The notes under the pieces are model-generated. The model was not told where the DNA came from and did not search any database. It saw only the letters and a program-made list of their open reading frames with translations. From Candidatus Uhrbacteria bacterium (lineage in GTDB: Bacteria; Patescibacteriota; Patescibacteriia; JACQSD01), in NCBI GenBank assembly GCA_016206165.1, contig JACQSD010000025.1, forward strand, positions 1 to 35,326: a stretch of DNA of 35,326 nucleotides. The letters run 5' to 3'. The number at the start of each line of letters is the position of its first letter. The first letter of the stretch is position 1. Below, one piece after another: positions 3,316 through 33,766 of the stretch. The position numbers were made by a program, and so were the translations under genes.

Positions 3316-3356
3316 GTTCTTTCACGGGTTGAGGATAGCCTGTGGATTACTCCCTC

Positions 3357-3385
3357 TTGACGGCATTTTGGAAAGCGCGTAGGCA
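3357..3385 (+). promoter_or_regulatory. Candidate promoter of the structured RNA
   Basis: TTGACG - 17 nt - TAGGCA, just upstream of the base-paired region. Confidence 0.4.
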
Positions 3386-3391
3386 GTAAAT

Positions 3392-4336
3392 TACCGTCGC
3401 AAATTTTCGTTCCTTTCAATCAACCCAAACCAACCAGTTTAAAACTGGATTCGACAAGGGTTACGAGATCAAGCAGGACACCCACATGTTTCTCGCAGAG
3501 AGAAACACGCCTCGAGCAATTGAGCCCTCTTCTCGCCAAGGAAGGTGACGACGGGAAATCAACCCGACGCCGCTCGACAAAGCAGGAAGTATCTCCGGCT
3601 CCGCCTCCAAACGGAACCCGGGAGAAAGCCAAGGCTCAATTGGCACGAGATCGCAACTCTTCGGAGTGGCGATTAAGGAAATGGGTAGAGGCTTACCAAA
3701 GAGGACAGATTCCACAATGTGGCTGCCTCCGGGTAGCTTCAGCGAGGAATCCCAGCAAACGGACCATGGTATACACGGTTCTGGTCACCTCTCTTGGTTC
3801 AACCTGCTGCGCAAAGGATACTCTTCCGACCAGATCGATGCAGATGACGCGGGATGATAACTGCGTCCAAAGCATACACGAGGTCGGAACGAAAATCCTA
3901 AAGCGCGAGTCTCAAACCTGAGAGTGTGAGAAGAAGGTCATTAAGAGACCTTCGGAACCTTCTCACAATACTCTCTCCCCATCTGGAACCCCCCATGAAT
4001 TCCAATGCCAATGGAAACGCTCCCGTAAAACGGAGAATATTCAACGGCAACGGAAGGGCCTGAACGAGTCGACGGACTCAATTAGGACTCAAATAGGGAA
4101 AACCAGATCGATCAACGGGGAAAAACCTCGACATACGGCTCGGGTATCAGTCTTCCTGCTCCAGGAAGCACCCGAGCAATCCTGAATATGTTTCGTTACC
4201 AAGAGCTGCAAACTCAAGGCGACGGAATACTTCCCCCCATAAGGGATAGGGAAAACGTATGTGCCCTTTGTCGAATCTTCTTCGGCCCAGGTAGTAAACT
4301 CGCAACGCGAGTGGACTACCTGGGCCTTCTTTTTTT
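3392..4336 (+). ncRNA. Candidate large structured non-coding RNA (~0.9 kb)
   Basis: No credible ORF. Local hairpins: 3650-3673 (ATCGC-a-ACTC-UUCG-GAGT-g-GCGAT), 3926-3966 (GTGAGAAG/CTTCTCAC enclosing GAAGGTC/GACCTTC), 4138-4177 (GCTCGGGT/ACCCGAGC plus CTTCCTG/CAGGAAG). Long-range complements: 3403-3413 with 3886-3896 (11 nt), 3517-3526 with 3633-3642 (10 nt). Ends in a strong terminator. Confidence 0.65.
4284..4336 (+). terminator. Intrinsic terminator
   Basis: GGCCCAGGTAGT aa ACTCGC aac GCGAGT gg ACTACCTGGGCC followed by ttcttttttt. Confidence 0.9.
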
Positions 4337-7839: not shown

Positions 7840-8753
7840 GCAAAGTCCTTCTCATTATTCTCGACGGATGGGGGATCGGGCCCATGAATGAGGCAAATGT
7901 TTTTTCGCACGTCGCGACACCGACATTTGATCATTGTGTTGCACACTACCCAGTGGCAGCACTCGCCGCATCTGGTGAGGCGGTCGGGCTTGCACCTGAC
8001 GAAGTGGGGAATTCAGAATCCGGGCACTGGAATTTAGGCACTGGCCAGCGTTTCCGCCCCGAGATTTGGAATACAACGATGATTCAGTCGACGACGTCGC
8101 TCGGCGCTGTCATTGCGCGCGCTGGGAAAAAGCAGCTGCATATTTCGGAAACAGAGAAGTACGTCCACGCGACGTATTTTTTTAATGGTGGACATGCGTC
8201 TCCATTTCAAGGAGAAGATGACATCCTTGTCCCATCACCAAAAGTTTCTTCGTACGACGAGAAACCTGCGATGAGTGCACGCCTCATCACACGGCGTTTG
8301 GTGCAGGCGCTCGAGAGCGGCGTCTATGATTTTTTTGTCGTCAATTATCCGAACCTCGACATCATTGCACACACCGGAAACCGTGCCGCAGTGATCAAAG
8401 CGCTTGCCATTATTGATCGCGAACTCGCGCTCGTCACCGCAACTGCGCTGCAGCACGGGGTGACCATACTCATGACTGCGGATCATGGGAACATTGAGCA
8501 GATCACCGAGGCGGATAACAACACTGCGCATCGCACCCATACGTTCGCGCCAGTTCCATTCATTTTTGCTCGTCCGGATCTTGAGCGTCGTCGCTTTGTT
8601 GATGCGCCAGTGATCACCCGTGACCTTTCTCCACTTCCTGTTGTCGGCGCACTTCGGGATGTTCCAGTCACCATCCTTGAGTTGCTTGGGCTTGAAAAGC
8701 CGATGGGCATGGAAGGAGCGTCATTGACACGCCTCCTTCCGAAAGGAGTGTAG
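7836..8753 (+). CDS. iPGM/GpmI-like metalloenzyme lacking the inserted phosphotransferase domain
   Basis: N-terminal LLIILDGWGIG...NSESGHWNLGTGQ and C-terminal KQLHISETEKYVHATYFFNGG...LVPSPKV...NYPNLDIIAHTGN...TADHGNIEQ motifs in only ~305 aa. Confidence 0.85.
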   Translation: MSKVLLIILDGWGIGPMNEANVFSHVATPTFDHCVAHYPVAALAASGEAVGLAPDEVGNSESGHWNLGTGQRFRPEIWNTTMIQSTTSLGAVIARAGKKQLHISETEKYVHATYFFNGGHASPFQGEDDILVPSPKVSSYDEKPAMSARLITRRLVQALESGVYDFFVVNYPNLDIIAHTGNRAAVIKALAIIDRELALVTATALQHGVTILMTADHGNIEQITEADNNTAHRTHTFAPVPFIFARPDLERRRFVDAPVITRDLSPLPVVGALRDVPVTILELLGLEKPMGMEGASLTRLLPKGV

Positions 8754-18006: not shown

Positions 18007-19239
18007 CTAACTGGTCATGAGGAGCAACCAGTAGAGGACACCGCGCCAGAACTGTTCCGGATCCGGGTTGAACGTCGGGGTGTGGTGGTCCCCCGACTCC
18101 GGACGCTTCGCGCCGAGCATGAAGAAACTTCCCGGCACCTTCTGGAGGTACCACGCGAAGTCTTCACCTCCGAGCTCGAGTCCCTGGGTCTTCGTTTCCT
18201 GACCAGCGCTCTCGAGCAGCGCTTTGACCCCGGCCACGGACTCCGGCGTGTTGATGAGTGCCGGATGCCCGTAGACGTACTCCCAGCCATCGACCACCTT
18301 GTCGTTCTCGATGGCCTCCACCTTCGCGTCCGGGTAGAGCGCGACGATGGCGCGGACGAACGCCTCGAGTTGCTTCGCGAACGCCATGCGTTCGTCCATC
18401 GGAAGGACGTTCCGGTTCGCGAACCACATGTCGACATCCGACGGCCGGATGTTCGATCCGGTTCCCGCCTTGAAGACCGCCGGAACAAGGCTCGAAGGTT
18501 CGGTTCCCCCGAGCGTGCGGAGCGCGAAACCGTTGAGCGCGTTGCAGAGGTGCACGCCGATGTCGATCGCGTTCGAGCCCCGGTGCGGGCTCATGACGTG
18601 ACCGCCCGAACACCGGACGCGAACGCGGAACCGATCCGAGTTCGCCATGGCACCCCCAGGGCGAGCCTGGAAGACGCCGGGAGTTCCTTCCTCGCTCGTC
18701 CAGATGTGGAGGCCATGTGCCGACTCGATGCCGTCGCAGACCCCGCCTTCGAAGACGAGCTTGTATCCCCCCGACGGCGTCACCGGGTTCTCCTCCGCCC
18801 GCTGGAACACGAATCGGAGATTCCTGGACGGCGTTACGCCACATTCGGCCATGGCGAGCATCGCAGCCATGAGCATGGCCGAGTGCACGTCGTGACCGCA
18901 AGCGTGCATGACGCCCGCGTGCTCGGAGGCGAACGAAAGGCCGGTCGCCTCCTGGATCGGAAGAGCATCGACGTCCGCACGGAGCAGACGTCGGGGCAGC
19001 TTCGGGTCGACCGTGTAGTCGATCCAGATCCCACCGTCTCCTTCGACGATTTGCGTCCCGCCGAACTGGAGTTTCGGAAAGATGTCATGGGTGACGCCGT
19101 GGGTGATGTATTCGAGGGTCGTTGTTTCCTCTTGGCTGAAACGGACACCCGGATGCTGGTGCATCCACTGGCGCCACTCTTGCATCCGCGCCACGACGCT
19201 GTGTGCCGCGCCGACGAGGTGCTGCATTTCGGTCAACAT
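18007..19239 (-). CDS. M20D family amidohydrolase/peptidase, GC-rich
   Basis: LLRADVDALPIQEATGLSFASEHAGVMHACGHDVHSAMLMAAMLAM...LGGEDFAWYLQKVPGSFFMLGAKRPESGDHHTPTFNPD; AAGGAG Shine-Dalgarno. Confidence 0.92.
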   Translation of the reverse strand: MLTEMQHLVGAAHSVVARMQEWRQWMHQHPGVRFSQEETTTLEYITHGVTHDIFPKLQFGGTQIVEGDGGIWIDYTVDPKLPRRLLRADVDALPIQEATGLSFASEHAGVMHACGHDVHSAMLMAAMLAMAECGVTPSRNLRFVFQRAEENPVTPSGGYKLVFEGGVCDGIESAHGLHIWTSEEGTPGVFQARPGGAMANSDRFRVRVRCSGGHVMSPHRGSNAIDIGVHLCNALNGFALRTLGGTEPSSLVPAVFKAGTGSNIRPSDVDMWFANRNVLPMDERMAFAKQLEAFVRAIVALYPDAKVEAIENDKVVDGWEYVYGHPALINTPESVAGVKALLESAGQETKTQGLELGGEDFAWYLQKVPGSFFMLGAKRPESGDHHTPTFNPDPEQFWRGVLYWLLLMTS

Positions 19240-19392: not shown

Positions 19393-19468
19393 AATTTACC
19401 ATTTCGTCTCACTATTGTCAAGTATTTCGTCAAGTTTTCGTCAAGTTTGTCGAGTTTTCGTCGAGTTC
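19393..19468 (-). promoter_or_regulatory. Promoter of the GC-rich M20 gene with tandem TTGACG(A) repeats
   Basis: Minus strand TTGACA (19416-19421 complement), 17 nt, TAAATT (19393-19398 complement), preceded by two more CTTGACGAAA copies and related CGAC units. Confidence 0.55.
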
Positions 19469-19553: not shown

Positions 19554-19587
19554 AACGTCTTTTGATCCGATCGGATCAAAAGACGTT
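19554..19587. repeat. 34-bp perfect palindrome, copy 1 (candidate operator)
   Basis: AACGTCTTTTGATCCGATCGGATCAAAAGACGTT followed by TGGTG; identical to 20231-20264. Confidence 0.9.
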
Positions 19588-19656
19588 TGGTGCAAAGAAT
19601 CGTCGTTTATGATACAATTGTATGCAGAGTATTGAGGTATACCGGTCTCTATCGCT

Positions 19657-20226
19657 ATGCGTAAAAAAGAAGAGAAAAAGCAACTATCACTGACAAAACA
19701 AGTACTATCCTTTATCGCTGCAAAATGCATTGAGGCAGGCGCTGGATTGATCACGGCAACGGTGAACTCCATCGAGTACCCACACGTTTTTCCAGAGTTT
19801 GTGGAAGGTATTCGCGCTGAGCGTGCATATTGGGAGCACAAGCGTGTGCACCGTGCGATACAGGAATTGCACAGGCATAAATTTATTACGATGCGCAAGA
19901 AGGGGAATAAACTCGTCATCCAACTTACTGAAGACGGCCGTATTCATTATCTGCGTCAACAAATACAATGTGCATCTTCATGTATACCTGGAGAATGTAT
20001 TATGGTTACCTTCGATATCCCGGAAGCGGCGCGGAGCGCGCGACTGCATTTCCGTCGTTTTCTGAAAGACTGCAATTTCTATCAATTACAAAAAAGTGTT
20101 TGGGTCTGTGAGAAAGCAGTACTACCAAATTTATTGCAGTTCATTGATATCACGAATGTGGGGCAATGGGTCCACGCGTTTGTTGCCAAAGAAGTCAAAC
20201 ATCCAAAGCTCAAGAAGAAAAAATAA
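19657..20226 (+). CDS. PaaX-like transcriptional regulator (winged helix plus Cas2-like C-terminal domain)
   Basis: Basic HTH-like N-terminus and C-terminal GECIMVTFDIPEAARSARLHFRRFLKDCNFYQLQKSVWVCEKAV. Confidence 0.75.
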   Translation: MRKKEEKKQLSLTKQVLSFIAAKCIEAGAGLITATVNSIEYPHVFPEFVEGIRAERAYWEHKRVHRAIQELHRHKFITMRKKGNKLVIQLTEDGRIHYLRQQIQCASSCIPGECIMVTFDIPEAARSARLHFRRFLKDCNFYQLQKSVWVCEKAVLPNLLQFIDITNVGQWVHAFVAKEVKHPKLKKKK

Positions 20227-20230
20227 GAGA

Positions 20231-20264
20231 AACGTCTTTTGATCCGATCGGATCAAAAGACGTT
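20231..20264. repeat. 34-bp perfect palindrome, copy 2 (candidate operator upstream of A3)
   Basis: Identical 34 bp plus the same TGGTG on the right flank. Confidence 0.9.
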
Positions 20265-20289
20265 TGGTGATAATACGCTTTTTATACGT

Positions 20290-21753
20290 ATGAATTTACA
20301 GGAGTTGACTTCGGCGATAAAAAAGGAAGACTGGGAATACCTTGTCGATCGGCGGGAGACGGTGTTGCACCGGTCGTTTACTGCTGCGTGTTACGATTAT
20401 TTTTTTGAGGAGACGGGAATAAAGATTTCTCGAGCGACGGTGGTACGTCCCGGGGGCGACGTGTGGTATCCGCAGAGTGTTCTTGAAAAAGTACGAGAGA
20501 CATTTCGTCGGGGCGGCGTCGCACGATGCCTTGATTTTCAGAAGCGCCTTATCCGAACCGTTCGTGCACTCGACCGATTAGCAACGCGATATGAAAGGCG
20601 AAAATCATTTGCACATTTTTCTGATGTACAATTGCGTCGCATGCTCTCCGAATTTGTCACGTTCACCATTCGTGCGAATGCGTTTCTTCTTCCATTCCCC
20701 GTAGCAGACGGCGTGATTGTCGATCTGATTCGCGCCGAACTCCCTCAAGCCTCGCGAGATCAACAAACAGAATGGATTTGTACGTTGACGTTTCCAGTGA
20801 AAGAGAATGCACATGCGCGTGAGCTGCGATCGCTTCTCATGCTTGCACAGAGGAGTAATGAGCAGCGGATCGTAAAACATCGTCAGCGTTTTTCATGGAT
20901 TGGCGCGCGGGGGCTTTGGTGGCAGGATGCATGGACGCCGGCGATGATCCGTGCGCGCATTCATGCTTCCCACGCTGCAGGGAAGAATCCAGTAGAGGTG
21001 ATTGCAGAGCAGCGCGCAGTGCGTCGAGCAATCATGTATGACGCACGTCGTCTTACGCAGACGCTCGCGATCAAACATGGATCACGCCTTGCGAAGCTGA
21101 TCGCGATCGCGCGTGACTATGCATATCTCCGCACATGGCGTACTGATGTTGTCTATGGATCGAGTTATCGCGCGCGTGGATTGTTCCAGGAACTTGCACG
21201 GCGGAGTCATGTTGATTATTTTCACCTTCCGTATCTGACGTTTCAAGAATTTCAGGAACTCGTTCTTACGTTTCGATTTCCGATTACTCAACAGGAGCTG
21301 CGTCGTCGCATTGCCGCAGGCAAGGATTATCTCGTGACGATTCGTTGTGGACGCGAGTATTTTGTATACACGGGAAAGCGATGGGTTGCATATTTTCAAA
21401 AACTTGTGCGTGGCAATACACAACAATCACGCGTGACCGCAGTGCGAGGAAGCATTGCATATCCCGGCGTGGTTCGTGGGCGGGCGCGGATTGTGCTATC
21501 AACAGACGATTTGTCCAAAGTACGCCGGGGTGATATTCTCGTTGCAGTGATGACGTTTCCTAATTTCATCCCCGCGATGGAAAAAGCAGCAGCATTTGTA
21601 ACCGATGAAGGGGGTATTCTCTGCCACGCATCGATCGTCTCTCGTGAAATGGGAAAACCGTGCGTCATTGGGACAAAGTCGGCGACCACAGTGTTTCGCG
21701 ATGGAGATCGCATTGAAGTTGATGCAACGCATTGTATTGTGAGAAAACTATGA
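20290..21753 (+). CDS. PEP-utilizer phosphohistidine-domain protein, paralog A3
   Basis: ...RGDILVAVMTFPNFIPAMEKAAAFVTDEGGILCHASIVSREMGKPCVIGTKSATTVFRDGDRIEVDATHCIVRKL. Start moved to 20290 because 20239 lies in the palindrome. Confidence 0.9.
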   Translation: MNLQELTSAIKKEDWEYLVDRRETVLHRSFTAACYDYFFEETGIKISRATVVRPGGDVWYPQSVLEKVRETFRRGGVARCLDFQKRLIRTVRALDRLATRYERRKSFAHFSDVQLRRMLSEFVTFTIRANAFLLPFPVADGVIVDLIRAELPQASRDQQTEWICTLTFPVKENAHARELRSLLMLAQRSNEQRIVKHRQRFSWIGARGLWWQDAWTPAMIRARIHASHAAGKNPVEVIAEQRAVRRAIMYDARRLTQTLAIKHGSRLAKLIAIARDYAYLRTWRTDVVYGSSYRARGLFQELARRSHVDYFHLPYLTFQEFQELVLTFRFPITQQELRRRIAAGKDYLVTIRCGREYFVYTGKRWVAYFQKLVRGNTQQSRVTAVRGSIAYPGVVRGRARIVLSTDDLSKVRRGDILVAVMTFPNFIPAMEKAAAFVTDEGGILCHASIVSREMGKPCVIGTKSATTVFRDGDRIEVDATHCIVRKL

Positions 21754-32815: not shown

Positions 32816-33766
32816 ATGGCTCAAAGTTACATTAAATTTTTTAAGGAGATATCAAAGAAGGACGTCCACATCGCCGGTGGGAAGGGGGCGTCGTTGGGTG
32901 AAATGACGCAGGCGGGGATTCCAGTGCCGCCGGGGTTTGTGTTGACCGCAGCAGCATTTGATCGGTTTATCGAGGAGACGGATCTTGATGTGGAGATCGA
33001 GGCGATATTGAACAAGGTGAACTATAAAGATGTAAACTCGGTGGATCGGGCGTCGAACGTGATTCGTGATCTCATCCACGATGAACGCATGCCAAAGGAT
33101 TTGCAGACGGATATTCTGGGAGCATTCAAGCAATTGAAGGCGAAGGAAGTTGCCGTGCGTTCATCCGCAACGGCAGAGGATTCCTCACAGGCGTCGTGGG
33201 CAGGGGAGCTGGAGACATATCTCAACTCAACAGAAAAGAATGTGATCGGAAATGTGAAAAAATGCTGGTCATCGCTTTTTACTCCGCGCGCCATTTTTTA
33301 TCGGAATGAAAAGGGAATGCGCAAAACAAAGGTGAGTGTGGCGGTCGTGGTGCAGGCGATGATTCAGTCGGAAATTTCAGGTGTCATGTTTACGGTGCAT
33401 CCGGTAACAAAGGATCGGAACCAGATGATTATCGAGGCGGCCTGGGGTTTGGGGGAGGCGCTGGTCTCCGGGCAGGTGACGCCGGATAGTTATGTCGTGA
33501 GTAAACGCGATTGGTCGCTCATTGATGTAAGCGTTGCGGAGCAGGCGCGGATGATCGCGCGAAAGACGCTTGGCACCGGAGTTGAATGGAAGCCGGTGCC
33601 AAAAAAAGACGCGCCGAAACAAAAATTGAATGGGAAGGAAATCGTGATCATTGCGCAAATTGGGAAGAAAATCGAGGAGCACTACGGCAAGCCGGAGGAC
33701 ATCGAATGGGCGTATGCAAAGAAAAAGTTCTACATTGTCCAATCCAGGCCGATTACGACGCTGTAG
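32816..33766 (+). CDS. Stand-alone PPDK_N/PEP-synthase-type ATP-grasp domain protein
   Basis: GGKGASLGEMTQAGIPVPPGFVLTAAAFDRFI, AVRSSATAEDSSQASWAGELETYLN, SGVMFTVHPVTKDRNQMIIEAAWGLGEALVSGQVTPDSYVV, ends FYIVQSRPITTL at the usual domain boundary; no His or PEP-barrel domain follows. Confidence 0.93.
   Translation: MAQSYIKFFKEISKKDVHIAGGKGASLGEMTQAGIPVPPGFVLTAAAFDRFIEETDLDVEIEAILNKVNYKDVNSVDRASNVIRDLIHDERMPKDLQTDILGAFKQLKAKEVAVRSSATAEDSSQASWAGELETYLNSTEKNVIGNVKKCWSSLFTPRAIFYRNEKGMRKTKVSVAVVVQAMIQSEISGVMFTVHPVTKDRNQMIIEAAWGLGEALVSGQVTPDSYVVSKRDWSLIDVSVAEQARMIARKTLGTGVEWKPVPKKDAPKQKLNGKEIVIIAQIGKKIEEHYGKPEDIEWAYAKKKFYIVQSRPITTL

Follow-up and report, generated by a model that had tools for sequence, protein, structure and literature searches.

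A REPtron consists of a RAYT (TnpA-REP) transposase gene flanked by REP palindromes (PMC3733652). PaaX repressors (PDB 8a39, 3l09) carry a winged helix followed by a Cas2-like PaaX_M domain, and the site of EcoPaaX was reported as TGATTC-N27-GAATCA (PMC9493321). Together with Cas2 and the IS200/IS605 elements, these are the described systems closest to the locus analyzed here, a unit of about 716 bp (19554..20269, plus strand) in contig JACQSD010000025.1 of a Candidatus Uhrbacteria bacterium; the whole stretch of 35,326 nucleotides is referred to below as the window. In this unit two palindromes without a loop (dyads) bracket a gene for a 189-amino-acid PaaX/Cas2-like protein. It is probably one of a family of small Parcubacteria cassettes that resemble REP/RAYT systems but are built on an unrelated Cas2-fold protein, and that may be mobile or may spread their dyads. 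From the sequences compared, we give this reading a rough probability of 0.55.

Like a REPtron, the unit has one small gene with palindromes on both sides and solo copies dispersed in the same genome; these lie mostly between convergent or codirectional genes, as REP palindromes do (PMC3733652). In both systems the repeat types are gene-specific, and the units are kept vertically yet appear to spread. In contrast to RAYTs, the Parcubacteria protein lacks an HUH motif and consists of a winged helix plus a Cas2-like domain, while its dyads are perfect, loopless, centred on CGATCG or CGGCCG and without a GTAG or CGTC foot, and solos are few per type (about 1-5 in the stretches scanned) instead of reaching high copy numbers. 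The order of a predicted winged helix and a PaaX_M domain is shared with the PaaX repressors, as are the wide-spaced inverted half-sites and possible autorepression that are features of PaaX. However, the Parcubacteria protein, at 189 aa, has no C-terminal phenylacetyl-CoA-binding domain and has a conserved Asp in its Cas2-like motif; its genes are found beside unrelated housekeeping genes and not beside paa genes, and two dyads surround nearly every one of them, with solos elsewhere. With Cas2 it has in common the ferredoxin-like domain, the invariant Asp and Arg, a Q-x-S-V motif and sub-domain structural matches, but it is fused to a winged helix and bracketed by palindromes. Neither a cas1 gene among the window genes scanned nor a CRISPR-like array among the window tandem repeats was found. 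IS200/IS605 elements are likewise tiny single-gene units with hairpin-forming ends, but the Parcubacteria unit has no HUH/Tyr transposase, its dyads are symmetric and loopless, and no clear target signature is seen.

Dyad pairs around the gene

The palindrome AACGTCTTTTGATCCGATCGGATCAAAAGACGTT is a perfect 34-bp dyad with zero loop. Exactly two copies are present in the window, where 100 shuffles gave an expectation of 0, and no further copy was detected across the 836-kb, 92-contig genome with up to 3 mismatches allowed. The upstream dyad (U, 19554..19587, no strand) has half-sites made of an outer module AACGTC(T), an AT-rich spacer and the core. The second copy (20231..20264) widens to a perfect 36-bp palindrome, the downstream dyad (D, 20230..20265, no strand), which begins 3 bp past the stop codon. 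Both are followed on the same side by TGGTG, making a 39-bp direct repeat, and they are the only zero-loop perfect palindromes of the window with arms of at least 10 bp. As single-stranded DNA, each folds much more stably than shuffled sequences (z about -7, fold with DNA parameters). The sole gene between them is the open reading frame (ORF) at 19657..20226 (plus strand), whose product matches the Pfam models PaaX_M (1.5e-13) and CRISPR_Cas2 (4.8e-6). G+C content of the unit is 0.43, against 0.48-0.51 in its flanks. The first-pass annotation of this DNA had described two identical 34-bp perfect palindromes around a PaaX/Cas2-fold gene, and both exact copies were recovered; its gap of 25 bp from the second palindrome to the next gene (ATG at 20290) was also reproduced, while the gap from the first to the regulator ATG (19657) measures 69 bp and not the 67 bp given there.

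Homologues were sought by tblastn with the 189-aa protein in 144 genomes, its own and others of its class. The gene was found in 30 of them, with a patchy distribution and at most 9 copies per genome; the genome of the window has three PaaX_M genes. The named relatives all belong to Patescibacteria, or the candidate phyla radiation (CPR), namely Kerfeldbacteria, Veblenbacteria, Parcubacteria, Colwellbacteria and Jorgensenbacteria, and the remainder are bacterial metagenome-assembled genomes. For each locus a bracketing score was taken from the highest-scoring combination of a site close to the start with a site close to the stop, judged by self-complementarity and mutual identity, and the same maximisation was applied to shuffled flanks as controls (n=435). 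At 69 of 87 loci the matched dyad pair scored higher than the highest of the 435 controls. Among loci fetched later and thus out of sample, 8 of 9 exceeded that maximum, and the ninth has one perfect dyad. When 1078 ORFs in the fetched genome stretches were scored, values of at least 48 were reached by family genes, by genes flanked by additional copies of these dyads, and by two unrelated repeats. In three related genomes that have no detected copy of the gene, no ORF out of 397 reached this value, and a family-model search likewise gave no PaaX_M gene there. Long perfect palindromes centred on CGATCG or CGGCCG were absent from 600 kb of these three genomes and present in all three gene-bearing genomes scanned. 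The palindrome is thus tied to the regulator-like gene, as the first-pass annotation had proposed; the possibility, raised there, that it is absent near orthologous regulators was not borne out, as the class of site is present at those loci with differing sequences, a result that favours the association.

The units measure about 0.7-0.9 kb, in the order dyad, winged-helix/Cas2-fold gene, dyad. U lies 20-150 bp before most starts and up to 450 bp upstream. The next gene after the unit is convergent in 31 cases and codirectional in 37, according to rough ORF calls. The two dyads of one locus are usually the same and mostly in direct orientation; at one locus (L066) both dyads are perfect but their arms differ.

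Dyad anatomy and the protein

The anatomy of the dyad was derived from the 69 loci. Half-site positions 1-5 form a near-invariant centre, CGATCG or CGGCCG (rarely CCATGG, CTATAG or others); positions 6-10 are AT-rich and pair less strictly; positions 11-17 are 81-93% self-complementary and variable in sequence. At positions 18-20 self-pairing drops to background, which gives a half-site of 17 bp and 34 bp in all, and this edge at position 17 suggests a protein footprint. No common tag of the GTAG or CGTC kind was seen at the dyad foot in the site tables, the pair in the window sharing only TGGTG.

Each gene type carries its own dyad sequence, and the rule that the gene is bracketed by its sites yields about 70 protein-site pairs. 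Variation of the core 4-mer is in keeping with the protein tree, on which it takes 24 changes, compared with 27-33 in 500 shuffles. By domain, the centre correlates chiefly with the Cas2-like part (partial r 0.13, p 0.002); for the outer module there is a weak correlation with the winged helix (partial r 0.06, p 0.047) and one with the Cas2-like part (partial r 0.09, p 0.005). Where U and D of a locus differ, spacer changes are compensated on both arms in 16 cases, where independent changes would give 1.4. The sense strand is not enriched in G-T mismatches (29 vs 55 in U, 30 vs 32 in D), so that a cause at the DNA level is likelier than an mRNA hairpin. An intrinsic terminator was rejected, since no T-tract follows the dyad on the gene strand and the only T-rich tail is antisense; on this point the first-pass annotation was right. 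A known RNA family was rejected as well, the single match being weak and far under threshold.

The PaaX_M model (PF20803) was matched by all 31 members examined, with 1.4e-24 as the best value, and Cas2 models matched 28 of the 31, the window protein falling under the TIGR01573 cut-off. Alignment of these members revealed invariant D120, R129 and R133 together with a Cas2-like Q-x-S-V-W motif, and no invariant His or Tyr. An HUH motif was also sought, but the 87 proteins contain only two chance H-x-H occurrences, at unrelated positions. The AlphaFold model is confident (pLDDT 85) and predicts an N-terminal helix, a winged helix (about residues 52-106) and a Cas2-like/PaaX_M domain (about 112-180). 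In a Foldseek search the top full-length PDB match was E. coli PaaX 8a39 (E 1.1e-3, 189 columns), followed by Cas2 chains matching the C-terminal domain. At the N-terminus, Pfam gave weak matches to other winged helices and none to the PaaX N-terminal model. The PaaX C-terminal domain was not matched either, the 189-aa protein stopping right after the Cas2-like domain (the PaaX chain has about 305 aa). A phage or plasmid origin of the gene was rejected, as tblastn gave no match in phages, plasmids or IMG/VR and the PHROGs matches were scattered, single and weak; a defence system was rejected too, the matches being mainly to Cas2 and CARF look-alike models. In one genome (G126), two members (L022 and L066) have nearly identical Cas2-like halves and different N-termini, while their dyads have the core TCACGATCGTGA in common and differ in the outer arms; the pair is a natural domain-swap test of specificity.

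Solo dyads, genomic context and occupancy

Dyads of the same kind also occur without the gene. In the genome of the window, the 18-bp core TTGATCCGATCGGATCAA is found at two further places with different outer arms: C86:758 is a different 36-bp perfect palindrome between convergent genes, and C23:5821 lies inside a TRM11-like gene. In G066, whose family comprises three genomes, the exact 36-mer of the L049 dyad occurs at seven places, five of them beyond the bracket pair, and dyads of three other genes are likewise present as solos or near copies; G126 contains solos belonging to two of its own dyad types. Among 17 solo dyads, 5 lie between convergent and 8 between codirectional genes, none between divergent genes, and 4 overlap ORFs, some of which may be spurious; the gene calls around solos are simple longest-ORF calls. 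Solos tend toward the vicinity of the parent gene. One array in G066 (C6 44040-46997, L121-L136) consists of a 218-aa gene, a 186-aa lipoprotein-like gene and a PaaX/Cas2-like gene, in this order, with a copy of one 36-bp dyad before the first, between each two and after the last; the two extra genes have no Pfam match. Passenger cassettes were considered and rejected: the array is suggestive, but the extra L033 dyad merely follows the core gene rsmA, and local spread of solos is the simpler explanation of extra dyads.

The neighbours of bracketed genes are unrelated housekeeping genes (ligA, parB, pyrG, gatB, murF, rsmA, gyrA, folD, recG), and of 98 neighbours at most 4 match any one Pfam family. 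G126 has five such genes beside an MFS gene with rsmA, ligA, parB, pyrG and gatB, these names being read from the sequences with Pfam backing for part of them. Copies from the same genome group together on the tree (52 label changes, compared with 66-76 in 200 shuffles), which indicates expansion within genomes. Three G059 copies share about 77% identity from U to D and are unrelated outside. At rsmA and gyrA the gene diverges faster than its own flanks.

An empty site that keeps one copy of the dyad, as expected of a mobile element, was found in one case. Both flanks of the L080 locus of G059 align (73-74%) with contig C11 of G089, a genome of the same genus, in which the gene is absent and 231 bp are found instead of 742. 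The junction has one dyad, CTAAATA-TTTTTAAA-CGATCG-CCAAATTT-TATTTAG, whose spacer is decayed while its core and outer module are preserved. Since gene-less genomes have about one bipartite dyad per 116 kb, a chance dyad at this junction is unlikely; the difference may reflect an insertion or a clean deletion. Comparison of L090 in G100, and of L017 in G049 (no usable flanks), gave no result.

In the window itself, U sits between divergent genes, an M20 peptidase gene (18007-19239, minus strand) and the 189-aa gene, so that local regulation is possible there. A short tandem repeat GTCAAGTTTTC (4.7 copies, 19417-19467) lies between the M20 peptidase start and U. From 11784 to 33766 the window has many diverged paralogues with only a PEP-utilizer mobile (phospho-histidine) domain, at the C-terminus; the run is followed by a separate PPDK_N ATP-binding protein (32816-33766), and together they form a split, expanded PEP-synthase-like set. 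A search of genome contigs with the single window protein gave nothing, and the profile of A3, the first gene of the main paralogue run, was too diverse to yield matches. Control of this array by the regulator, as suggested in the first-pass annotation, finds no backing: PEP-utilizers are not among recurrent neighbours of the bracketed genes, which are diverse housekeeping genes, and none of the 17 solos lies between divergent genes. Autoregulation of the 189-aa gene is possible, because U lies 20-150 bp ahead of most starts. Other repeats were also noted. In G006 (C1 1-200000, L157-L166), where no PaaX/Cas2-like gene was detected, there are other families of loopless palindromes, for example GACCCGTCAGTCGCGACTGACGGGTC and ones centred on GAGTACTC. 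Several unrelated dispersed repeats of about 40-105 bp were seen in G066 (C6 60001-80000, L124, about 3320-3710 and 8290-8730); G066, G029 and G096 contain dozens of copies.

Proposed mode of action of the unit

A dimer of the protein may bind the dyad, perhaps when the latter is extruded as a hairpin. Its Cas2-like domains would cover the conserved centre, and its winged helices would reach about one helical turn outward to the outer modules. The dyad would be the end or attachment site of the unit, and the unit, or the dyad alone, would be copied or moved. An occupied site would then have two dyads and an empty site one, with solos scattered, by analogy with the spread of REP palindromes by RAYT transposases. 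In the Cas2-like domain, the invariant Asp is the candidate for a catalytic residue, and binding at U may also repress the gene's own promoter. A stronger form of this proposal, which we put forward only tentatively, is that the unit represents a new class of single-gene mobile element of Parcubacteria. Its Cas2-fold protein would then, with neither Cas1 nor an HUH nuclease, itself recognise the palindromic (hairpin) ends and cut and rejoin, or copy, them, and would thereby spread both gene and solos.

The main rival is a plain PaaX-like autorepressor, which would bridge two dyad operators and loop out its own gene, with the solos as operators of other genes and no mobility. It agrees with the full-length fold match to E. 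coli PaaX, with the position of U ahead of most starts, with the divergent genes around U in the window and with the long retention of some loci, and the bipartite half-sites with their footprint-like edge would suit a dimer on duplex DNA. But an autorepressor would not be expected to have a second operator just past the stop codon at almost all loci, and the next gene is convergent almost as often as codirectional. The solos, too, are poorly explained as operators, some lying within genes, five between convergent genes and none between divergent ones, and the five fully identical 36-bp solos are too long and exact for convergent operators. The joint change of spacers on both arms is a further difficulty, and we regard this explanation as doubtful. 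Dyads acting as mRNA hairpins at both transcript ends, bound or cut by the Cas2-fold protein, or as elements of stability or termination, would account for the strong folding and the compensatory changes, and RNases are known among the relatives of Cas2. This seems improbable in view of the missing sense-strand G-T excess, the antisense T-rich tail of the second window dyad, a base-specific centre that tracks the protein, and the location of U, which can be as far as 450 bp upstream and in many cases is probably not part of the mRNA. It is more improbable still that Parcubacteria simply tolerate or make perfect palindromes, for instance by template switching, with the gene association incidental: other zero-loop families do exist in G006, which has no detected gene, but the dyad-gene pairing is far above controls and the dyads with these centres are confined, in the genomes scanned, to those with the gene.

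Several observations weigh against a mobile or dyad-spreading cassette. Movement and excision of the unit and cleavage of its DNA are predictions of that reading. Deletion between direct repeats could also have produced the lone clear empty site. The dyad there is partly decayed, with the spacer mostly unpaired, and a second orthologous gap (L023 in G089) has no clear dyad; no target-site duplication was seen beyond the dyad. The loci L044, L052 and L078 have their downstream flank in common, and the rsmA, gyrA, folD and ligA loci are common to a genus or a family, a persistence indicating that the unit is not highly mobile. The C23 solo was tried as an insertion in the TRM11-like methyltransferase, but it lies in what is a variable linker among the homologues and is at best a possible insertion. 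Crossover at the centre does not explain the differing arms of the two L066 dyads, and the protein-dyad correlations are weak in size.

No earlier description was found in the open-access literature on PaaX with CPR, Parcubacteria, Patescibacteria or Cas2; we consider the unit new as a system, with moderate confidence in its mobility. If the cassette reading is true, a Cas2-fold protein would handle palindromic ends alone, outside CRISPR adaptation, which would bear on the origin of Cas2 and PaaX and on how palindromes came to be dispersed in bacteria that lack RAYTs. For the mostly uncultured, tiny-genome Parcubacteria it would, moreover, provide a native gene unit with a specificity that can be read from the flanking dyads. 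Even as a mere regulator, the family would supply its protein-site pairs for decoding specificity and would explain the matches to PaaX or Cas2 models in Parcubacteria genomes.
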